From an uncultured archaeon (GTDB taxonomy: Archaea > Halobacteriota > Methanosarcinia > Methanosarcinales > Methanoperedenaceae), in contig CABMIA010000187.1 of assembly GCA_902386085.1 (NCBI GenBank), forward strand, positions 1 to 15,082: a DNA stretch of 15,082 nucleotides, read 5' to 3'. Below, piece after piece: positions 2,020 to 12,956 of this stretch. The stretch's first letter is position 1. Every line of letters starts with the position of its first letter. Below the pieces are notes generated by a model. That model worked only from the letters and a program-made list of their open reading frames with translations, was not told the origin of the DNA and did no database searches. Both the position numbers and the translations under genes were made by a program.

Positions 2020-3246
2020 ATGAAAATTGAAAACTTGTTGAAATATTCAAGAGATCCACTCTATAAGAATTCATTTTTCCTGATGACAACAAGGGTATTT
2101 AATGTAGCTTGCGGCTTTATTTTCTGGATAATAGCAGCAAAATATTATTCTGTTGAAAATGTGGGTGTGGCTACAGCATTGATTTCATCGCTCAGTCTCG
2201 TGATCCTTTTTTCAAGATTCGGTTTTGACTTCGCCCTTATCCGGTTTATCAATATCAATGAAAAGGGTAAGGTCATCAATACCTGTCTCAACATAACAAC
2301 CCTCTTATCGATCGCCACAGGAATTATTTATATGATGGGTGCAAACATATTTTCCCCCAGTCTTTCTTTTATCCAGAAACCGGAATATGCGGCGCCTTTC
2401 ATGGTCTTTGTGATAATGAATTCTGTCGTTTCCATAACAGGCAATGCATTTACAGCCTTGAGGAATGCAAGTTATTTTTTCTATCAGAACGTGTTTCTTG
2501 CATCAAGGATTCCTCTTCTTATCCCACTTGCCTTAATGGGAAGCTTTGGTATTTTTGGGGCATTGGGACTTGGATATCTTTTTTCCGCAGTATTCGGGTT
2601 CTTTCTGCTAAAGAAGTTCATGAACTTTGATTTCAAGCTTGATATGCCTTTCATCAAAGAATCTTTCGGTTTTTCATCGGGAAATTATATATCCAGTATT
2701 TTTCAAGCGGTTCCCACATTAATCCTTCCGATATTAATCCTGAACATTTCAGGCGAAGCTGAAGCTGCGAGGTATTATATCGCTTTCGCAATTGGAAACC
2801 TGGTGCTGATAATCCCGGATGCTCTTAGCACTTCGCTTTTCGTTGAGGGAAGCCACGGGGAGAGCCTCAGGAAGATTGTTACAAGGGCGGGCGCTGCTAT
2901 TTTCTCTTTCCTTGTTCCCGCGGTGCTCGTCATAGTTCTATTCGGGAAATTTCTGCTCGGTCTTGTAGGAAAAGATTATGTGGGTGCATATGAGCTTTTA
3001 AGATTGCTGGCTTTATCGAGCTTCTTTGTGGCCGTGTATTCGCTTTTTATTCCAATCCAGAACGTGAGGCTGAAGGTGGAGAGCATTGTGAAATTGAATT
3101 TTCTAAGGTCTGTGCTCCTTATGGGTCTGTCATATATTTTTATTCTGAAGTTCGGGATCGTGGGCGCCGGATATGCATGGATGGTCACGTATGGGATTTT
3201 GAGCGTGGGGATTATCTGGATGGTGAGGAGGATGGGGTGGATATAG
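2020..3246 (+). CDS. Oligosaccharide flippase, Wzx/PST type (MVF superfamily)
   Basis: This 408-residue protein is hydrophobic over nearly its whole length, with roughly 11-12 likely membrane helices joined by short loops, as in polysaccharide transporters (PF01943/PF13440). Family-like features are the N-terminal helix pair followed by GVATALISSLSLVILFSRFG and the FDFALIRFIN segment, typical of the second and third helices of Wzx-like proteins. Such proteins flip lipid-linked oligosaccharides across the cytoplasmic membrane. The ATG at 2020 is preceded by AGGAAG about seven bases upstream, which supports this start. The gene converges on the GT-C-like gene, with only ten bases between the two stops, and follows a wecB remnant, so it probably once belonged to a plus-strand glycan gene set. 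Its substrate cannot be read from sequence. Confidence 0.88.
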   Translation: MKIENLLKYSRDPLYKNSFFLMTTRVFNVACGFIFWIIAAKYYSVENVGVATALISSLSLVILFSRFGFDFALIRFININEKGKVINTCLNITTLLSIATGIIYMMGANIFSPSLSFIQKPEYAAPFMVFVIMNSVVSITGNAFTALRNASYFFYQNVFLASRIPLLIPLALMGSFGIFGALGLGYLFSAVFGFFLLKKFMNFDFKLDMPFIKESFGFSSGNYISSIFQAVPTLILPILILNISGEAEAARYYIAFAIGNLVLIIPDALSTSLFVEGSHGESLRKIVTRAGAAIFSFLVPAVLVIVLFGKFLLGLVGKDYVGAYELLRLLALSSFFVAVYSLFIPIQNVRLKVESIVKLNFLRSVLLMGLSYIFILKFGIVGAGYAWMVTYGILSVGIIWMVRRMGWI

Positions 3247-3256
3247 GAAAAACATA

Positions 3257-4990
3257 TTATGATTTATAGATTTCTATGTTTAAGCTATCATATATTTTAT
3301 TGACATTTGGATCTTTTCTAAATTTCTTAAAGTCGGAAGCATTATAACGCTCCACTTTTTTATATACTGTTTGATATAATTCTTCTCCTATTGTAGTTAA
3401 TACAATATACTTATTATGTTCATCAAAAAAATCATTTTTATCATAACCGAAATGATTTCGTAGATTTCCTTCATTGCTAAATTTAATATCTTTGTTAAAT
3501 CTTCGTTTTGTTTCTGACCAACCAAATAATAAATCAGAAAATCTATATCCAATTGAACCTTGTAAGTCGTATATCGGTTTTTCGTCTTTGTTAATAAATA
3601 GCCAATTCATTCCATAAATTTCGTTAGAAGTAGTTGCAATATTTGGATGGTATATGATTGGAGAATAGAATGCTCCATACATACTCGCTGTAAATACCAA
3701 TGTTAAAATAATTGAGGAAATGATAGTACCTATAGGTGTCTTTATCTTTTTCAAAATTAGTTCATAAATAGAAATTGCAAAAAGAGGAATCATAGGAAAG
3801 ACTGTGAAATTCAGATTAGAAATTCTGTCAGGACTATGAGAAATGAAAGGATTAAAAGTTAAAAACCCTTCAAATAATCCAGATATTATTATAGATACGG
3901 TGAGTAAATATATTGTTTTTCTCTCATTCTTATTCAATTGTATTCTTCTTATCAGGATATAAATCAATAAAATTGTTATGAACAGTAGTGGTATTATGTA
4001 TCTACCATAATAGAAAAATATAAGTCTTATAAATTCTATCATTTCTAATTGAATTTTTGATGTTTTTTCTAAAGTTTCTGCCATAACAGACATTGTTATT
4101 GAATTTTTGAACGAATGATAAACAGCACGGAAAGAACTAAGATAATATCTATTATATATGAACCAAGTTATGAATGTGCAAATGGAAATCAAAATCATAT
4201 TTAATATTTTTTTATGTTTCCCTTTAATTAGCATATACAATTCCAAAAAAATAAATATAAGAAATAAATAAATAAATATAAAAGGATGCCCGAATGGAAG
4301 AATTAATACGAATAACATTAATATAAAGGAATAAGAAAACGTCTTTAAAGTCAAATATTTAGATAAAATAAAAAGAATTAATGGTATTAATATAAAAAAT
4401 AAATAATTCGGAACGATAGAAAAATGAAAATGTCCCAAATAATAGATAAAAGAGCATGGGATAATTATGTGCATAATTTTTGTATTATTAATATATAGTT
4501 TCGAAAAAATGAATATCCCATAAACAAATATGATTGAGAAGACGAGGGGTAATATTATTGATAAAATATTTGGAGGAATACCACTTATCATTGAGGTCGA
4601 AGAGAATATGATATGTGTAGCAGGGTATATATCAGATGGGTCAAAATTTCCCGTCAAAATTATATTGTTTATTTCACCCAAATGACTTATTTCATCATCT
4701 CGTCCTAAAACATAATATCCAAATGCATAAGGTATATAAAAAAGCAAGCAATAATTAATAAATAATGTAATAATTCCTACTATTTTAAATTTTTTCCATT
4801 CTGTCAAAATCAAAATACAACAAATAAAATAAACAATCAATAATCCATACCAAAAAGTAGGAGGAAGTTGAGAATAAAGATCAATTTTATAACCGATAGG
4901 AGTATATTTTTTTAATATTATTAAATTATTTGTTGTAATTGATAAAGATATCAAAGCGAGCAATGTTAGTATAATTTTATTAGTTTTCAT
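3257..4990 (-). CDS. Polytopic membrane protein, probable GT-C-type glycosyltransferase
   Basis: From the ATG at 4990 the product is 577 residues. The frame continues 24 codons upstream, but that part overlaps the end of the GT4 gene and does not look like a protein start, whereas MKTNKIILTLLALISL begins a clear first membrane helix. About 11-13 hydrophobic segments fill residues 1-450. The first large outside loop holds RDDEISH (about 97-103), an acidic motif placed as in GT-C enzymes that use polyprenyl-phosphate sugars. The last about 110 residues are soluble and end in a KIYDSLNIEIYK pattern like that of archaeal GT39/DUF2206-like proteins. It is the last gene of the operon, 14 bases after the GT4 stop. 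The gene is extremely AT-rich: bases 4201-4260 contain 9 G or C in 60. The family placement is inference; an O-antigen polymerase-like role is an alternative. Confidence 0.68.
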   Translation of the reverse strand: MKTNKIILTLLALISLSITTNNLIILKKYTPIGYKIDLYSQLPPTFWYGLLIVYFICCILILTEWKKFKIVGIITLFINYCLLFYIPYAFGYYVLGRDDEISHLGEINNIILTGNFDPSDIYPATHIIFSSTSMISGIPPNILSIILPLVFSIIFVYGIFIFSKLYINNTKIMHIIIPCSFIYYLGHFHFSIVPNYLFFILIPLILFILSKYLTLKTFSYSFILMLFVLILPFGHPFIFIYLFLIFIFLELYMLIKGKHKKILNMILISICTFITWFIYNRYYLSSFRAVYHSFKNSITMSVMAETLEKTSKIQLEMIEFIRLIFFYYGRYIIPLLFITILLIYILIRRIQLNKNERKTIYLLTVSIIISGLFEGFLTFNPFISHSPDRISNLNFTVFPMIPLFAISIYELILKKIKTPIGTIISSIILTLVFTASMYGAFYSPIIYHPNIATTSNEIYGMNWLFINKDEKPIYDLQGSIGYRFSDLLFGWSETKRRFNKDIKFSNEGNLRNHFGYDKNDFFDEHNKYIVLTTIGEELYQTVYKKVERYNASDFKKFRKDPNVNKIYDSLNIEIYKS

Positions 4991-5004
4991 GTATGTGTAT
5001 GATT

Positions 5005-6189
5005 TCAGTTTGTATGAATCTTGGCATAAACATCTAAGATTTTTTTTATTACTATTTCCCACTTGAATTGTTCGGCATAATTCATAATCATCTCAATATT
5101 CCATTCTTTATTTAGAGCGAACAAAATATTTTCCGCCAAGTCTTTTGCATTTGCTGTCTCACTCAACAAACCAATTTCATTTGAAATTATAATTTCTTCG
5201 CTTCCACCATTATAAGTTGCCACCACTGGTTTTCTGCATCGCATTGCTTCAATTTGCACTATCCCAAAACTTTCTCTTAAACTCGGCAAAACAAATATAT
5301 CGCAAGCATTCATCCAGATTGGAATCTCATTATGCGGTCTTCCACCAATAAGTTTGATATAAGAATCTAATCCTAGTTTCTTGATTTGTTTTTCCAGTTT
5401 GCCTTTTAATTCTCCGCTACCAACTATGATACATAAAATATCTTTTTTATGTTTTAGAACTTCTTGCATGGCCTCAATTAGATATTGATGCCCTTTTACT
5501 TCGAATAAATTCCCTACCGAAAGGATTACCTTCCTATCCAGAGGCAGGTTCAGAGCTCTCCTGCATTCTTTTAAATCTCGTGAATAAAATAAATTGCTGT
5601 CAAACCCGTTTGGTATAACTTCAACGGGTGTTTTCACATTAAGTTTATTAATACATTTTAAATTGCTAGTACTGACAGTAATGATTTGATCTGCCGAATT
5701 AAGAACATATTCTATCCTCTCTCTCCATTCATCATCTCTGAATGGCAGGTCATAAATATCATATCCGTGTGCAGTAACAATAAATGGGACCTTATATTTT
5801 TCTTTCAGTTTTGCACCAACGTAACCAGATGACCAGGCAAAATGTGAATGAATCAAATCGAATTTTATATTATTTCTTCTGATTTGCGCATCGACGGCTT
5901 TAAAGTGTTTTTCACCAAGATTAAAATAACCATTTTTAGTTGGTAAATAGATTACTCCAGTCGGTATCACATTTACATTATTAGGTTTATTTGTTAAATC
6001 AATGAGATTTTCTTTTGTGAAAGGTTTTAGATAATTAATTGGCAATAAGTTAGAGATTTCTGCGAAAGGATTATGCCTTACACAAACATCAATTTGATTA
6101 AAATGCTTTGAAGTCGTATCAACAGAATCTTTGACGAAGCTTTTATAGCTATGTGCAATGACAATCAAATTTTTATTTATAATATTCAT
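5005..6189 (-). CDS. Glycosyltransferase family 4 (GT-B fold)
   Basis: The 394-residue product has the complete two-domain layout of GT4 enzymes. The N-terminal Rossmann domain contains FDLIHSHFAWSSG (110-122) and TAHGYD (139-144). The linker region has VIPNGFD (191-197). The C-terminal domain starts at SVGNLFEVKGHQYLIEA and carries the nucleotide-sugar site ESFGIVQIEAM, with the E-x7-E pair at E306 and E314, followed by PVVATYNGGSEEII. The enzyme would transfer a sugar from a nucleotide donor to a lipid-linked acceptor at the inner face of the membrane. The start is ATG, three bases after the DUF354 stop codon, so translation is probably coupled. Acceptor and donor are unknown. No catalytic defect is visible. 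Confidence 0.93.
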   Translation of the reverse strand: MNIINKNLIVIAHSYKSFVKDSVDTTSKHFNQIDVCVRHNPFAEISNLLPINYLKPFTKENLIDLTNKPNNVNVIPTGVIYLPTKNGYFNLGEKHFKAVDAQIRRNNIKFDLIHSHFAWSSGYVGAKLKEKYKVPFIVTAHGYDIYDLPFRDDEWRERIEYVLNSADQIITVSTSNLKCINKLNVKTPVEVIPNGFDSNLFYSRDLKECRRALNLPLDRKVILSVGNLFEVKGHQYLIEAMQEVLKHKKDILCIIVGSGELKGKLEKQIKKLGLDSYIKLIGGRPHNEIPIWMNACDIFVLPSLRESFGIVQIEAMRCRKPVVATYNGGSEEIIISNEIGLLSETANAKDLAENILFALNKEWNIEMIMNYAEQFKWEIVIKKILDVYAKIHTN

Positions 6190-6192
6190 AGT

Positions 6193-7272
6193 TTAATTTA
6201 ATCTAAAACTGTTTTGAGCTTCGGGATTTTCCTTAATTTCATTGAAACTTTTTGGGTAATTCTCTGCAAACCATGTCATAAATGCAGTCACATCGATTTT
6301 CTCTTTTACCAGTTTTTCTTTTTTCTCCTTCCAGATTCTTTTCAGTTCAGGATTCTGAATAATTTCAAATGCTTTCTCCACGGCTTGATAGTTTTCTTTA
6401 TAATTAAACATCAAATTATATTTCTGCTCAAGCTCGACGAAATTTCCCATCGTTCCAACAAGTGAAGAAACATAAATTGAAGGTGTCCCCAAAATTGCGC
6501 TTTCCGTTGCCATAGTCGCTCCCTCTCCAATGTATAATGTAGCATAATACAGAAGGTCGTGCATTTTCTCAGGTGAAATCCTGATCCTGTATTTTTCCAG
6601 TTCGTCATCCAATCCTGCCTCTGAAGTGATTAATACCCTGCCGTATTTTTCCAGTTCTTTTACCAATACCTTTTTGTTTGTTATGCCATGCTGCCCGACG
6701 TCATGACTTGCTTTCCATGAAACAAAACGCAAAATAATGAATTTATCTTTTTTGCTTAATCCTATTTCATCCAGCACCGCAGGATTGGGTGTAAAATAAT
6801 TGGGGTGCAGGTGCGCGAGCTCTGTGTAGCCATTGTATCGAACTTGTTTTCTGCCGAGGTCTTTTTTGAAACATGCAGGGGTGCAAACGGCATCAGCAAA
6901 CGGTAAGTATAATCTGATCTGCTCCATGCTGTGCTCTGTATCTTCAAAGATAATGCATTTTTTGCGAAGCAAATATGAAACGTGTGCTGCACGAATTGAG
7001 CCAAATCCAATGAAAATATCAGGGTTAAAGCTTTTTACCGCAAAATACATTTTTAAATCAATTATTGGAATATTAATTAGTTTTTTAATTAACGAGTTGC
7101 CATAACTTCCGATATCTATGAAATCAAAACCATAATTATTTAATAATTCATAAGTAATGTCTTTTCTTGTTGCTGTAATTAGAACTTTATGCCCTTTTTT
7201 CTCCATTTCCCAGATAAAATTCTTGAAATAATGGACATGCGCAGGATGGTTTATGTCAACAACTATTTTCAT
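6193..7272 (-). CDS. DUF354 family protein (GT-B/UDP-GlcNAc epimerase-like fold)
   Basis: The 359-residue protein begins MKIVVDINHPAHVHYFKNFI, the hallmark start of the archaeal DUF354 family (PF04007). These proteins are related in fold to UDP-GlcNAc 2-epimerases and GT-B glycosyltransferases and occur in surface-glycan loci; their exact reaction is not established. Other family-like segments are DIFIGFGSIRAAHVSYL, IFEDTEHS and IGEGATMATESAILGTPSI near residues 248-266, the last resembling the nucleotide-sugar binding loop. A TTG four codons upstream (7284) would overlap the preceding gene. The ATG at 7272 is preferred because it gives the canonical N-terminus and leaves a four-base gap. The gene sits between the FemAB-like and GT4 genes in the operon, so a sugar-nucleotide or glycosyl-transfer step is plausible. 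Confidence 0.88.
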   Translation of the reverse strand: MKIVVDINHPAHVHYFKNFIWEMEKKGHKVLITATRKDITYELLNNYGFDFIDIGSYGNSLIKKLINIPIIDLKMYFAVKSFNPDIFIGFGSIRAAHVSYLLRKKCIIFEDTEHSMEQIRLYLPFADAVCTPACFKKDLGRKQVRYNGYTELAHLHPNYFTPNPAVLDEIGLSKKDKFIILRFVSWKASHDVGQHGITNKKVLVKELEKYGRVLITSEAGLDDELEKYRIRISPEKMHDLLYYATLYIGEGATMATESAILGTPSIYVSSLVGTMGNFVELEQKYNLMFNYKENYQAVEKAFEIIQNPELKRIWKEKKEKLVKEKIDVTAFMTWFAENYPKSFNEIKENPEAQNSFRLN

Positions 7273-7276
7273 TTTT

Positions 7277-8293
7277 TCAACCAAAACTCCCGAATACCAT
7301 ACTACTGAACTTCTTATAAACCAGCATTGGCATACGCTGATTTACTTTTGTTCCTATTCTGTATTTTAAATTATCGCGATTTTCCGTAAGAGATACTGGA
7401 TTCTTTGGATAATAACTATAATTTAATTTCTTCTCCACAGTACCCCATCTCTTCTTAAAATTGATCAATCCTGAATTATCATAGGATGTTCTTCCAAAAT
7501 CATAATATCTATATCCATTCTTACATGCATCTTCAATACTATTCCAGATAAAAGCATTATACGGATGCATTTCCAGATAATCCGGGTCTGCTGCGCCATA
7601 TCCATAGAGAACGGAATCTTTGAAGTATTCCATAATGCCGCCTGCTATTATTTCATTGTTAAACCTGGTAACATACAGGGAAACATGATCCCCCATTATC
7701 TCGAAAAGATTCTTGAAAAAATTCCAGGGATGACACGGGACTCCGATCTCCTTTTTCGTGATGCAGTTCAGTTCATAGAATTTTTTTATATCTTCGATAT
7801 TCCTTGTGGTTTCGACAGAAATTCCCGTTTTCTGTGATTTTTTTATCGCCCACCTGACGCTGCCTTTATCTAATTTCTGCCAGACCTGCCCGGTATCGGG
7901 TGATAATTCTAAAATGTATGTGGAAAAAGAATTCCGGTGCTGGAAAACCTCAGATTCGACATGTTCCCTGATTTCAAGAGAATCAACTCCCAGTTCTTCA
8001 AACAGCCTGATCCCTTCTTTCAATATATCCTCATTCCCGATAATGCCGCAAACATGGGAAAAAGGAACCGAACACAACCTGTTCCCGGTCAGTTTGCTTT
8101 TGATATGGAATAATGGCAATAGCCCGGCAATTTTTCCATTATCATCCTTCACAAACAAATAATATGGTTTGAATCCAAATGTTTTTTCCAGGAACTTCTT
8201 CCATTCGGGGGTATGATATATGCCTGATGCAGCGGCGTTATTTAAGAATTCCTTCCACTCATCTTCTTTCACGTTTTTTGTTATCTCTGCCAT
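7277..8293 (-). CDS. FemAB-like / GNAT-fold acyl- or aminoacyltransferase (Acetyltransf_6 type)
   Basis: The 338-residue product has two GNAT-like halves. The first carries YHTPEWKKFLEKTFGFKPYYL (26-46) followed by GKIAGLLPLFHIKS and GNRLCSVPFSHVCG. The second has EIIAGGIMEYFKDSVLYGYGA (214-234), then YYDFGRTS (263-270) and INFKKRWGT (277-285), a C-terminal signature of FemAB-related proteins including those linked to bacterial XrtA/PEP-CTERM loci (TIGR03019-like). Bacterial FemAB proteins add amino acids to peptidoglycan from aminoacyl-tRNA, but archaea lack murein. The likely role here is acylation or aminoacylation of a surface sugar. Its start lies three bases after the deacetylase stop and its end is four bases before the DUF354 ATG, so all three are probably co-translated. 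The family is well supported; the substrate is unknown. Confidence 0.85.
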   Translation of the reverse strand: MAEITKNVKEDEWKEFLNNAAASGIYHTPEWKKFLEKTFGFKPYYLFVKDDNGKIAGLLPLFHIKSKLTGNRLCSVPFSHVCGIIGNEDILKEGIRLFEELGVDSLEIREHVESEVFQHRNSFSTYILELSPDTGQVWQKLDKGSVRWAIKKSQKTGISVETTRNIEDIKKFYELNCITKKEIGVPCHPWNFFKNLFEIMGDHVSLYVTRFNNEIIAGGIMEYFKDSVLYGYGAADPDYLEMHPYNAFIWNSIEDACKNGYRYYDFGRTSYDNSGLINFKKRWGTVEKKLNYSYYPKNPVSLTENRDNLKYRIGTKVNQRMPMLVYKKFSSMVFGSFG

Positions 8294-8296
8294 TAA

Positions 8297-9052
8297 TTAT
8301 CTAACCGCCACCAGCATCTTCTTCCCCGCATTAAAAGCAGAATCCATCACGAAACTGAAACCCCAGTCCATTCCATTTCCCCATCTTTCAGGATGCGTTA
8401 AAATATAGATCCTGTCAATCCGGTTGCTTTCAATCATCGCGATCGTATCATCCGTGGTCTCAACTTCGCTTTCCTCTCTCCTCCCGGGAATAAAATCCCT
8501 TATATTGTTCTTCGAATTCCAGCTCCGCCCGGTATCAGAAAAATAGTTAATATCCTTTCCAGCAGATAGATATGCCTCCCCTATGATCCCGAAATCCCTG
8601 AAATCATATACCTTCCACAGCTCGCGATCGTCATATTTCGATAAAGGGTTCCCGTGCATGCAGATCGTCTTCACATCGCATACCTCCCTGAACTCCTTCA
8701 ACTCGCTCCCGAACAACCCAATCGCCTTCTCAAAATCCCCTTTCGCCTTTCCCAGCGCCTCATAATGGTACCCCACCTCGTGCCCCATGCCCTCTACTTC
8801 CCGCATGATCCAGGGCCTGAACACGCGGCTGTTCATCCTGAAATAATACGTCGCCCTTATGCCGCACTGCGCCTCTATCCTCGCCGTACCCAGCGCGCTC
8901 ATGGGCCTGCGGTCGATGTCGTGGCGCATAATCACAAAGCGCTCCGGCAGCGCCGCACCTGCGAAGTACTCTGACAGCGTCAGGGTTGGGTAGTTTTCTG
9001 CGACTGCGGAACAGAGGGAGTGGAATTTTGTGAGGGTGAAATCGAGGGACAT
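8297..9052 (-). CDS. Divergent polysaccharide deacetylase (NodB-like, WbmS-like subgroup)
   Basis: This 251-residue protein has the order of motifs seen in divergent CE4-type deacetylases: FVIMRHDIDRRP (39-50, metal-binding His/Asp pair), GIRATYYFRM (64-73), GMGHEVGYHYE (88-98), TICMHGNP (129-136), FGIIGEAYLS (154-163) and THPERWGNGMDW (219-230). Classical members have H-[ST]-x-x-H-P in motif 2, while here only one His is present in GYHYE, as in WbmS-like relatives. No signal peptide is visible, so it probably acts in the cytoplasm on a sugar-lipid or nucleotide-sugar intermediate. It is the first gene of the five-gene operon. Much of it is GC-rich (38 of 60 bases at 8881-8940), unlike the later genes. 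A damaged near-identical copy lies at about 10412-10870. Confidence 0.87.
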   Translation of the reverse strand: MSLDFTLTKFHSLCSAVAENYPTLTLSEYFAGAALPERFVIMRHDIDRRPMSALGTARIEAQCGIRATYYFRMNSRVFRPWIMREVEGMGHEVGYHYEALGKAKGDFEKAIGLFGSELKEFREVCDVKTICMHGNPLSKYDDRELWKVYDFRDFGIIGEAYLSAGKDINYFSDTGRSWNSKNNIRDFIPGRREESEVETTDDTIAMIESNRIDRIYILTHPERWGNGMDWGFSFVMDSAFNAGKKMLVAVR

Positions 9053-9100
9053 GATTTTTTAAAAATATTTTTTTTGCTGTATTACTTTTTTTCTTTTCAT

Positions 9101-9109
9101 TTTAAATAA
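9101..9109 (-). promoter_or_regulatory. Candidate TATA box of the glycan operon
   Basis: Read on the minus strand, TTATTTAAA lies about 50 bases before the ATG at 9052, where an archaeal box A would give a short leader. No clear Shine-Dalgarno precedes the ATG; the leader is almost pure A and T. Confidence 0.4.
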
Positions 9110-9663: not shown

Positions 9664-10065
9664 TCATGTATCCAACCAATTTTCTACTCTTAACCCTTTG
9701 ACTCGCTCGAAATGTCTTTCATTGTTTGTAACAAGTGTTGCATCTTCTCCGAGTGCACATGATGCAATAAAAATATCTGCATCATCTATTATATTTCCTT
9801 TTTCCATGAGGGACACTTTAATTCTTCCGAATGTTTCACATATAATATCATTTGATTCAATAATCATCAACTCTTTTTTTATTTTTTCGATATTAAGAAT
9901 ATTTTTCTTTAATTTTTTAGATTTATATGCACCATAATATAGTTCACTAAGTGTGATAAATGATATGGAGAGAGATTCTAATCCAACCTCTAATGCCTTT
10001 TTTTCAATGCTCTCATATCCTTTTAGCCAGTAAATACAAATATTTGTATCAAGTAGATATTTCAT
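9664..10065 (-). CDS. vapC: PIN-domain ribonuclease toxin, VapC family
   Basis: The 133-residue product has the usual VapC length and architecture. It begins MKYLLDTNICIYWLKG with the first acidic residue D6, followed by SELYYGAYKS (E41), then NIIDDADIFIASCA (D94/D97), and ends with LVTNNERHFERVKGLRVENW, the standard VapC tail with TNN at 113-115. All acidic residues expected for the Mg-dependent PIN nuclease site are present, so it is probably active. VapC toxins cut tRNA or rRNA when freed from their antitoxin. Its ATG overlaps the stop codon of the upstream gene in an ATGA (10062-10065), as in coupled toxin-antitoxin pairs. Confidence 0.93.
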   Translation of the reverse strand: MKYLLDTNICIYWLKGYESIEKKALEVGLESLSISFITLSELYYGAYKSKKLKKNILNIEKIKKELMIIESNDIICETFGRIKVSLMEKGNIIDDADIFIASCALGEDATLVTNNERHFERVKGLRVENWLDT

Positions 10066-10316
10066 AGTTTAATATCTCTTCCACCAAATCCAGTTCTATT
10101 TGAGTAAATATCATTGATTATCTCATCTGCATTTCGGTCGTCTTCCCAGATTCCACAAAGACCGCTTGATTTTTTTGCCATGGGTTTTTTTATTTTTACA
10201 GCCAGGAGAGATTCCTTTAGTGAATGTAGTATGTTAATAACCATCGGAAGAGCTTCTTCAGGTATTTCTTTTACTTCATTCAATATTAAAGTTTTATATT
10301 TGCTTTTTGTTTGCAT
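10062..10316 (-). CDS. Putative antitoxin partner of VapC
   Basis: This 84-residue acidic/basic protein precedes the PIN toxin and overlaps it by ATGA. Residues 1-45 (KTLILNEVKEIPEEALPMVINILHSL) form a helical segment like those of DUF2281-type antitoxins that lack a clear RHH or AbrB fold. Residues 50-84 carry SGLCGIWEDDRNADEIINDI followed by a basic, glycine-containing tail, a pattern often seen in the toxin-binding end of VapB-like antitoxins. No standard DNA-binding motif can be pointed to, so autoregulation is uncertain. Assignment rests mainly on position, size and overlap. Confidence 0.78.
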   Translation of the reverse strand: MQTKSKYKTLILNEVKEIPEEALPMVINILHSLKESLLAVKIKKPMAKKSSGLCGIWEDDRNADEIINDIYSNRTGFGGRDIKL

Positions 10317-10411: not shown

Positions 10412-10870
10412 CTATCCTCCCAGTAAAAAGCATGCTCCCGGCCATCCTGTTGAAGTTCGGATAGAAGCCTTCCTTCTAATAACCCCAGATATTACCCGCC
10501 GATGATCCCGGAAAACCTTGAACTCCTTCAATTCGTTCCCGAAGAGACAAATCGCCATCCCAAAATCCCCTTTCGCCTTTCCCAGCGCCTCATAATGGTA
10601 CCCCACCTCGTGCCCCATGCCCTCAATCTCCCGCATGATCCAGGGCCTGAACACGCGGCTGTTCATCCTGAAATAATACGTCGCCCTTATGCCGCACTGC
10701 GCCTCTATCCTCGCCGTACCCAGCGCGCTCATGGGCATGCGGTCGATGTCGTGGCGCATAATCGCAAAGCGCTCCGGCAGCGCCGCACCTGCGAAGTACT
10801 CTGACAGCGTCAGGGTTGGGTAGTTTTCTGCACTGCGGAACAGAGGGAGTGGAATTTTGTGATGGTGAAA
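10412..10870 (-). pseudogene. Broken duplicate of the polysaccharide deacetylase gene
   Basis: From about 10560 to 10865 this strand matches the intact gene at 8297-9052 with about six differences in 300 bases. It encodes MRHDIDRMPMSALGTARIEA, then ATYYFRMNSRVF and GMGHEVGYHYEALGKAKGDF. It is inactive for several reasons. The start ATG has become ATC near 10874. One base is lost in the early codons (GCGACTGC becomes GCACTGC near 10831), causing a frameshift. The copy also loses the CMHGNP part by an internal deletion near 10520, after which only a trace of FGIIGEAYLS remains before similarity ends. The C-terminal THPERW motif is absent. A restart at the internal ATG (10759) would give 115 residues without most motifs. 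Divergence is higher downstream of 10560 than upstream, so decay or gene conversion is uneven. Confidence 0.88.
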
Positions 10871-10940
10871 TCGAGTAGGATGGTTTCTTCTAAAAAGTAT
10901 TTCTTACTGAATTATTTTTTTCTAATTCATGTAAATGGCA

Positions 10941-12305: not shown

Positions 12306-12363
12306 TATCCATGTCAATTATAAGCTGTTATTACTCATATTACTTTTCATCTTGATAACTATA

Positions 12364-12387
12364 CCCCGCAGCTCTGCTGCGGTTGGG
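12364..12387 (+). repeat. IS200 left-end hairpin
   Basis: Stem CCGCAG/CTGCGG (12366-12371 with 12377-12382) and loop CTCTG, identical to the right-end hairpin. It should be the single-stranded binding site of TnpA. Confidence 0.85.
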
Positions 12388-12435
12388 ACAAACCACAACG
12401 CTAACATTTTTTAACGTGGGTACATATTGAAACTA

Positions 12436-12888
12436 ATGATTGAGTTAGAGCATGCAAGCCATTGTGTCTATAGAATTCGATACCATATGGTATTTTGTAT
12501 AAAATATAGAAAAAAATTATTAATCGATAACGATCGTATTGGATTTTTTAAAGAAATTTGTTCAGAGATTGGAAAAAGATATTGGATTAAATTTGATGCA
12601 ATGGGCACAGATGGTGATCATGTGCATGTTTTATTGGGTGCAGCCCCAAGATATGCGCCTTCAAATATTATGCAGATAATAAAAAGTATAACAGCCAAAA
12701 ACATTTTTAAGAAATACCCTGAAATTAAAAAACAATTATGGGGTGGACATTTTTGGAGTGAAGGAGGATATATTGGAACACTTGGAGATGGAGTAACAGC
12801 AGAAATTATTAAAAATTATGTTGAGAAGCAAGGCACTAAAGAAGAAAAGGAAGGACTTAGCCAAATGAAGCTTTTAGATTTTGAATAA
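12436..12888 (+). CDS. tnpA: IS200-family transposase TnpA (Y1 HUH)
   Basis: The product is a full-length Y1 transposase of 150 residues from the ATG at 12436; a TTG at 12427 would add three. The region YRIRYHMVFCIKYRKKLL is the usual N-terminal strand. DHVHVLL contains the HUH metal-binding pair, and NYVEKQG carries the catalytic tyrosine (Y128), which attacks the DNA strand at the element ends. The segments WGGHFWSEGGYIGTLGD and PSNIMQIIKSITA match the conserved middle of the family. All catalytic residues are present and there is no stop, so the element may still move. The plus-strand gene faces the minus-strand genes on both sides. Confidence 0.95.
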   Translation: MIELEHASHCVYRIRYHMVFCIKYRKKLLIDNDRIGFFKEICSEIGKRYWIKFDAMGTDGDHVHVLLGAAPRYAPSNIMQIIKSITAKNIFKKYPEIKKQLWGGHFWSEGGYIGTLGDGVTAEIIKNYVEKQGTKEEKEGLSQMKLLDFE

Positions 12889-12903
12889 AAATGAAACTGC
12901 AAA

Positions 12904-12956
12904 GCGACAGCACGGTCATGCCCCGCAGCTCTGCTGCGGTTGGGTAGTGCTGTCGC
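12904..12956. repeat. IS200 right end: hairpin nested inside a perfect 10-bp outer stem
   Basis: The inner hairpin (12923-12939) repeats the left-end palindrome. Around it, GCGACAGCAC (12904-12913) pairs perfectly with GTGCTGTCGC (12947-12956). The outer stem has no counterpart at the left end. It may be a bidirectional terminator between tnpA and the aminopeptidase gene, or part of the element's right end. Confidence 0.75.

Follow-up and report, generated by a model that had tools for sequence, protein, structure and literature searches.

An uncultured archaeon of the Methanoperedenaceae carries, on a contig of 15,082 nucleotides (nt) (assembly GCA_902386085.1, contig CABMIA010000187.1; the whole contig, C187 in our numbering, is here called the window), a minus-strand operon of five genes that encode a CE4-like deacetylase, a FemAB-like transferase, a DUF354 protein, a GT4-family glycosyltransferase and a large hydrophobic-looking protein. 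We read it, at a probability of roughly 0.6, as an operon for a lipid-linked polysaccharide, surface or extracellular, one sugar of which is deacetylated and then given a new amide. That the locus is a polysaccharide module is very likely, and that one and the same sugar is deacetylated and then acquires an amide is, taken alone, probable. An earlier sequence-only reading of this DNA had proposed a surface-glycan assembly operon with deacetylation followed by acylation as its chemistry; the operon is supported by what follows, and this chemistry is still the likeliest.

The window belongs to a genome of 1.69 Mb that is 64% complete. Open reading frame (ORF) calls on the window gave five minus-strand ORFs exactly where that reading had put them, and its spacing of 3-14 bases is also exact. 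When the first in-frame ATG is taken, the gaps are 3 nt between the deacetylase and FemAB genes, 4 nt between FemAB and DUF354, 3 nt between DUF354 and GT4, and 14 nt between GT4 and the last gene. All five ORFs had been recognized; an adjoining flippase gene, convergent with the operon and 10 nt from its end, had been left out.

Linkage of the deacetylase, FemAB and DUF354 genes across genomes

We searched the 392 genomes of the phylum set with a deacetylase profile (A3, E 1e-20), a FemAB profile (A4, E 1e-15) and PF04007 for DUF354 (1e-12), which were positive in 79, 137 and 129 genomes, respectively. From the 104 deacetylase places, the nine lowest-scoring ones (fragments, including a broken copy in the window) were set aside, leaving 95 in 76 of the 79 positive genomes, as three genomes had only fragments. 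At least 46 of these 95 deacetylases have a FemAB gene within 5 kb among the 150 FemAB matches listed, always on the same strand; the lower-scoring 74 of those 150 matches contributed a single linked gene, in genome G076. Conversely, 41 of the 48 best FemAB matches, some of which are rows of profile A4 itself, lie within 5 kb of a deacetylase. The sequence-only reading had named the absence of this co-occurrence from other archaea as the observation that would speak against it, and the pair is found in many of them. The FemAB start lies 680-1047 bases downstream of the deacetylase in 31 of the 48 linked pairs, which is the spacing of a next gene.

DUF354 is also a frequent partner. Among the 150 DUF354 matches listed, it lies within 5 kb of at least 53 of the 95 deacetylases, where chance linkage was estimated at about 1% (from one to four DUF354 matches per positive genome of roughly 2-4 Mb). 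Among the matches listed, DUF354 and FemAB are both near at least 32 of the 95 deacetylases, in 29 genomes, at least one of them is near at least 67, and neither is near 28; this joint count drew on 44 FemAB rows already linked or near, and its FemAB total of 46 agrees with the separate count. The linkage in other genomes shows that the first genes are not arranged this way by chance. The nearest relative with the set, a 99% complete genome of the same genus (G023), has adjacent deacetylase and FemAB genes whose products are 74% and 72% identical to those of the window, with DUF354 one gene beyond, and the pair is therefore not an assembly artefact.

We also compared named loci, the best-scoring 78 of 573, a sample biased to close relatives and sorted into 41 archaeal and 37 bacterial loci by record title (in one archaeal locus, no deacetylase frame was called). 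Within 5 kb of the deacetylase, FemAB is found in 23 of the 41 archaeal and 18 of the 37 bacterial loci, DUF354 in 29 and 19, and both partners in 17 and 12. Desulfobacteraceae, Chloroflexota, Pelotomaculum and Thermosipho are among the bacteria carrying both. Since the set occurs in bacteria too, the module is common to both domains, and the description of the system as specifically archaeal, made from the window alone, has to be given up. A DegT-type aminotransferase within 5 kb (8 of 41 archaeal, 6 of 37 bacterial loci) fits amino-sugar chemistry. The five families proposed to be adjacent are not conserved as a whole: the core of deacetylase, FemAB and DUF354 recurs and GT4 genes are frequent at related loci, but homologues of the last gene were found in only 6 of 59 other relatives searched, at 27-29% identity.

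These data also bear on whether the genes share a pathway at all, or form a loose mosaic island of sugar-modifying genes assembled by lateral transfer. The G+C content declines along the operon from the first gene to the fifth (51.5, 38.2, 35.6, 32.4 and 24.9%); their histories may therefore differ. On a FemAB tree of 44 proteins, the archaeal and bacterial labels require at least seven changes, with the window protein beside those of Methanosarcina and Methanolobus and next to Pelotomaculum, and few relatives have a homologue of the last gene. Yet the first three genes stay linked across archaea and bacteria despite such transfer, and the linked FemAB matches keep to the strand of the deacetylase, which makes a mere mosaic quite improbable.

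Other neighbours of the deacetylase were observed at related loci. From 64 named deacetylase genes with 3 kb of downstream sequence, 27 have FemAB within 4 kb, 11 have an ATP-grasp gene, two have both and 28 have neither; in loci L040, L070 and L077, a PHP-like and an ATP-grasp gene come after the deacetylase and may offer a different route to an amide. We do not claim that an ATP-grasp ligase replaces FemAB beside the deacetylase (Fisher p = 0.10). The clusters of neighbouring genes that we call PHP, PIG-L, hexapeptide, NodB-type and CapK are presumed to be such, and the gene after DUF354 in archaeal loci L043 and L076 is, on the same presumption, CapK-like. The representative of the CapK-like cluster had no Pfam match.

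A diverged CE4-like deacetylase

Pfam and NCBIfam scans, TIGR03006 included, gave no match to the window deacetylase. In alignment A6 (61 of the 72 named deacetylases and the window protein), H44, D45, D47 and H220 are invariant in all 62 proteins, and H91 and H96 are kept in 61, so that the window protein carries the complete set of CE4-type residues. The metal-binding and catalytic roles of these residues are presumed from the motif, which we take to be usually DD in CE4 enzymes, in place of the DxD seen here. The structural model is confident (predicted local distance difference test, pLDDT, 95.3), and the high-probability matches among the 50 listed are mostly CE4 entries. A sequence profile searched against the PDB gave one weak match, to a peptidoglycan deacetylase (E 0.042). 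A CE4-like identity is deduced from the invariant residues together with the weak CE4 structural match.

Two loci carry unusual forms of this gene. In a relative of the same order (L022, 6772-8457), a fusion joins a window-type deacetylase and a TIGR03006-like domain (PF01522 and PF11959), giving two deacetylase domains in one protein; its TIGR03006 score is 120.3 bits, below the cut-off of 276.2. On one Altarchaeum contig (L100), several partial deacetylase frames were seen.

A FemX-type fold and the acyl donor of the FemAB-like protein

The second protein matches PF02388 (64.7 bits; cut-off 24) and PF13480, Acetyltransf_6 (55.4 bits; cut-off 22). Its structural model, built from 44 sequences, is confident (pLDDT 93.9; predicted template-modelling score, pTM, 0.91) and has a FemX-type fold. 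The PDB entries at ranks 1-11 are FemX, FemA and Sbb17/Sba18, with 6snr, 1xf8 and 7z5y on top (template-modelling scores of 0.66-0.69 by query length). The Sbb17/Sba18 entries are titled aminoacyl-transfer RNA (tRNA)-dependent peptide synthases, and two of the three contain streptothrisamine; ranks 12 and 13 are lysyl- and alanyl-phosphatidylglycerol synthases. In alignment A5 (43 of the 48 named FemAB proteins and the window protein), K280 is the sole residue invariant across all 44 proteins. It pairs with K305 of FemX, which is named as the catalytic residue of that enzyme in the part of PMC12945691 available to us. The window protein lacks the coenzyme A (CoA)-type motif [RQ]xxGx[GA], which occurs in five of the 44 proteins, all bacterial and two of them close kin. 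The alignments place His188 of the window protein at the position of FemX Arg211, which we take to be a uridine diphosphate contact, so its acceptor probably differs from that of FemX.

Because of the structure ranking, the invariant K280 and the missing CoA-loop pattern, an aminoacyl-tRNA would be the likelier donor, a prediction that we hold at even odds. Conceivably, the enzyme instead draws on acyl-CoA or an acyl-acyl carrier protein, and the module swaps one N-acyl group of a sugar for another in the manner of an ordinary polysaccharide N-acyltransferase. The PF13480 match and the CoA enzymes lower in the structure search (VipF, the first of them, at rank 14, and N-myristoyltransferase from rank 34) agree with such a donor, which the three observations just named nevertheless make somewhat unlikely. 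The protein could also modify a surface peptide or protein rather than a sugar, as FemX and FemA themselves extend murein peptides; the same portion of PMC12945691 describes this and also the FemX-like Orf11, which uses Gly-tRNA to glycylate streptothrisamine. Such a role is very improbable, since enzymes of this type acting on an amino-sugar compound exist, the linked genes are polysaccharide genes, and no linked gene for a peptide substrate was noticed, although no search was aimed at one.

The sequence-only reading had found a FemAB enzyme puzzling in archaea, which have no murein. This paradox is weak, because a FemAB branch, TIGR03019, is already tied to polysaccharide loci, and one archaeal protein (L039, from the same half of the FemAB tree as the window protein; see below) passes the cut-off of that family with 268 against 260.35 bits. 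FemAB domains of sponge Thaumarchaeota have been described, in the part of PMC7848895 that we consulted, merely as cell-wall related.

The glycosyltransferases, the last protein and the flippase

The third protein is a clear DUF354 member (PF04007, 100.4 bits; cut-off 22) with sub-threshold matches to Glyco_transf_28 and murG, and the fourth scores 146.4 bits against PF00534 (cut-off 26.4). No paper joining DUF354 and glycosyltransferase was found in the open-licence literature, where none of the DUF354 titles listed looked relevant. The last protein has no family match over cut-off in its longer, 601-aa form, the best being PF20176, DUF6541, at E 0.23, and the label GT-C is guesswork based on a hydrophobic appearance. 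The convergent flippase is recognized by PF01943 (30.6 bits; cut-off 28.2) and probably belongs to the system of the operon.

Two FemAB forms and archaeosortase C

Since an archaeosortase had been suggested as a gene to look for nearby, we examined archaeosortase C, which occurs in 54 of the 392 genomes. We used 53 of its 56 rows (fragments were left out), the deacetylase rows with one of the nine dropped ones kept, and the top 48 FemAB matches. A deacetylase lies within 10 kb of 24 of the 53 archaeosortase C matches, on the opposite strand in 21 of the 24, and 18 of the 24 also have FemAB. Both genes co-occur in 32 genomes against 10.1 expected, although the genomes are related and not independent.

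A FemAB tree of 62 rows, including all 48 best matches (a short search, with 18 of 59 inner forks weak), splits into two halves. Five proteins of the window's half score 158-268 bits against TIGR03019 and five of the other half 42-68 bits, so the window's half is closer to this bacterial family. Linkage to archaeosortase C was seen for 18 of the 25 matches that the other half contributes to the 48 best, as against 1 of 23 in the window's half. The clade of the window protein is well supported and has 12 rows, 11 from the 48 best; tested for a sortase link, none of them showed one. Nine of ten genomes checked for exosortases carry a window-clade FemAB; an exosortase-family match over cut-off was present in two of the nine, in neither case near the deacetylase. 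An exception comes from the same genus: in G002, which is outside the 48, a window-half FemAB lies about 4 kb and a deacetylase about 2 kb from archaeosortase C. In G021, the distance between FemAB and archaeosortase C is about 9 kb.

The genome of the window itself, incomplete as it is, has one FemAB match. No exosortase was found among the scanned genes of the window, and the two PF09721 matches of the genome are not on the window contig. Its single TIGR03762 (archaeosortase C) match is on contig C46 (253.6 bits; cut-off 100), where locus L121 also holds a second complete deacetylase, at the very contig end, and a flippase. The same contig encodes a DUF1616/VanZ/S-layer protein, two PEF-CTERM proteins and a PF00953 MraY/WecA-like transferase. 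The suggested archaeosortase is thus present in the genome and near a deacetylase, but not at the window. The initiating phosphoglycosyl transferase, the other gene suggested for a search, has a comparable outcome: no PF02397-type enzyme was found in the incomplete genome, and the PF00953 protein of contig C46 is a lipid-carrier sugar-phosphate transferase.

If the window operon were itself coupled to archaeosortase C and PEF-CTERM proteins, its glycan could be the anchor of surface proteins cleaved by the archaeosortase, or be made together with that anchor. The proximity of the deacetylase family, often with FemAB, to archaeosortase C, the gene content of contig C46 and the exception in G002 all point in that direction. 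We consider it unlikely for the window, given its clade without a sortase link, the contrast between the two halves of the tree, the position of the exosortase-family genes in the nine genomes and the window's own lack of a sortase match.

Proposed pathway and its weighing

The pathway that we infer, in its substrate, donor and order of steps and in the part given to the last protein, would begin at the inner face of the membrane, where DUF354 and GT4 would add sugars to a membrane-lipid carrier. One amino sugar would lose its N-acetyl (or N-formyl) group to the CE4-like deacetylase, and the FemAB/FemX-like enzyme would make a new amide on the freed amine; the group attached would most likely be an amino acid supplied by aminoacyl-tRNA. 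Export of the sugar unit would fall to the flippase encoded next to the operon, and the large last protein may transfer or polymerise the unit outside.

Several observations count against this reading. Among the 150 FemAB matches listed, 49 of the 95 deacetylases have none within 5 kb, and of the 64 named genes, 21 have FemAB as the next gene and 27 have it within 4 kb. The window FemAB scores 188.9 bits against TIGR03019, under the cut-off of 260.35; its matches to FemX are at 13-16% identity and a root-mean-square deviation of 4.8-6.6 Å; and K280 could be retained for some other reason than FemX-like catalysis. For the deacetylase, the best PDB match, the CE4 chitin deacetylase 7bly, is weak (E 7.3e-4).

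More broadly, we tentatively propose a widespread archaeal and bacterial module of deacetylation followed by tRNA-fed aminoacylation, whose sister archaeal form is coupled to archaeosortase C as a counterpart of the bacterial exosortase-polysaccharide system. If true, the aminoacyl-tRNAs of the translation machinery would feed the building of archaeal cell surfaces. Should FemAB use aminoacyl-tRNA, a reaction familiar from murein and some antibiotics would be extended to the surface sugars of archaea, and the chemistry of FemAB in the exosortase-linked polysaccharides of bacteria could be predicted as well. The linkage between archaeosortase C and the sister form suggests that this sortase has a partner pathway. 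In our judgement, little has been mapped of the genes and chemistry behind the matrix polysaccharides of archaea, and the marker set of deacetylase, FemAB and DUF354 would make such loci recognizable in methanogens and in methane oxidisers, organisms often found in aggregates.

Features of the window and neighbouring genes

Table 1. Coordinates of the operon and adjoining features in the window
Feature	Position	Strand	Basis
CE4-like polysaccharide deacetylase (RHDxD family), operon gene 1	8297..9052	-	Conserved residues, model, weak structural match
FemAB/FemX-like double-GNAT transferase, probable sugar N-aminoacyl (or N-acyl) transferase	7277..8293	-	PF02388, PF13480, model
DUF354 protein, GT-B-like glycosyltransferase or sugar-nucleotide enzyme	6193..7272 (ATG 7272, alternative TTG 7284)	-	PF04007
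GT4-family glycosyltransferase	5005..6189	-	PF00534, PF13692, PF13439
Large hydrophobic-looking protein, possible GT-C-type transferase/polymerase	3257..4990 (ATG, 577 aa) or 5062 (GTG, 601 aa)	-	No family match
Wzx-like polysaccharide flippase	2020..3246	+	PF01943
Broken partial duplicate: deacetylase 5' half and upstream bases	10412..10936	-	Repeat search; remaining frame 115 aa

The broken deacetylase copy is upstream of the intact gene, at a distance of about 1.8 kb; positions 8686-8985 are repeated at 10516-10815 (95% over 300 bases) and 9003-9107 at 10832-10936 (74% over 105 bases). Between both copies lies a PIN-domain VapC-like gene, which overlaps a small frame without family match (9664-10065 and 10062-10316), perhaps a toxin-antitoxin pair, and a VapC-like homologue of the same cluster is found directly upstream of the G023 deacetylase (L021, 8498-8938). 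A GC-rich motif of 27 bases, in two copies (96%), flanks an IS200-like Y1 transposase gene (12427-12888), the whole spanning 12361-12944. At the other end, the contig end truncates an ORF (2-1756) for a protein of 585 aa or more, without family match and, by eye, with the look of a secreted surface protein.

Comparison with known systems

The sugars of methanochondroitin are N-acetylated and would not call for a deacetylase. No tie to the genes described here was found in the parts of the methanochondroitin literature available to us (e.g., PMC9723798), and no described archaeal pathway joining deacetylase and FemAB was found in the accessible portions of the open-licence papers searched. Haft (2006), as far as the available part of that paper goes, found no PEP-CTERM in archaea, and listed MA1063 of Methanosarcina acetivorans among the homologues of a possible CapK protein (PMC1569441).

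The nearest described relative is the bacterial XrtA/PEP-CTERM exopolysaccharide cluster (TIGR03006 and TIGR03019; e.g., psc1 of Rubrivivax), in which, like in the window, the deacetylase gene adjoins a FemAB-related gene among glycosyltransferases and a flippase. The excerpts of PMC3684757 at hand describe a 75-kb polysaccharide cluster of Rubrivivax in which nodB adjoins femA, both labelled PEP-CTERM-associated, and in which insertions elsewhere in the cluster (nodB and femA are not among the marked genes) suppress an aggregating phenotype. The window differs from that cluster in that its deacetylase does not match TIGR03006 and its FemAB stays under the TIGR03019 cut-off; DUF354 often accompanies the window type, and no exosortase was found near the deacetylase in the window-clade genomes checked.

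Archaeosortase C with PEF-CTERM proteins has been described in anaerobic methanotrophic (ANME)-2 archaea (PMC5244752, in the sections available). Archaeal archaeosortase C loci share the deacetylase family and, mostly, the sister form of FemAB, and a deacetylase copy of the window's own genome sits in one of them; the window, in contrast, has the other FemAB form and no archaeosortase, with the exception of the same genus, G002, noted above. With CE4 deacetylases (NodB, the chitin deacetylases and the ArnD deformylase), the window protein shares metal-site-type residues and CE4 entries among its structural matches, but it is highly diverged, at a best structural E of 7.3e-4. With FemX and FemA, and with Orf11, Sbb17 and Sba18, the window FemAB shares a double GNAT fold in its model and the catalytic-type lysine; it is only 13-16% identical to them, and its context is neither murein nor antibiotic but polysaccharide.

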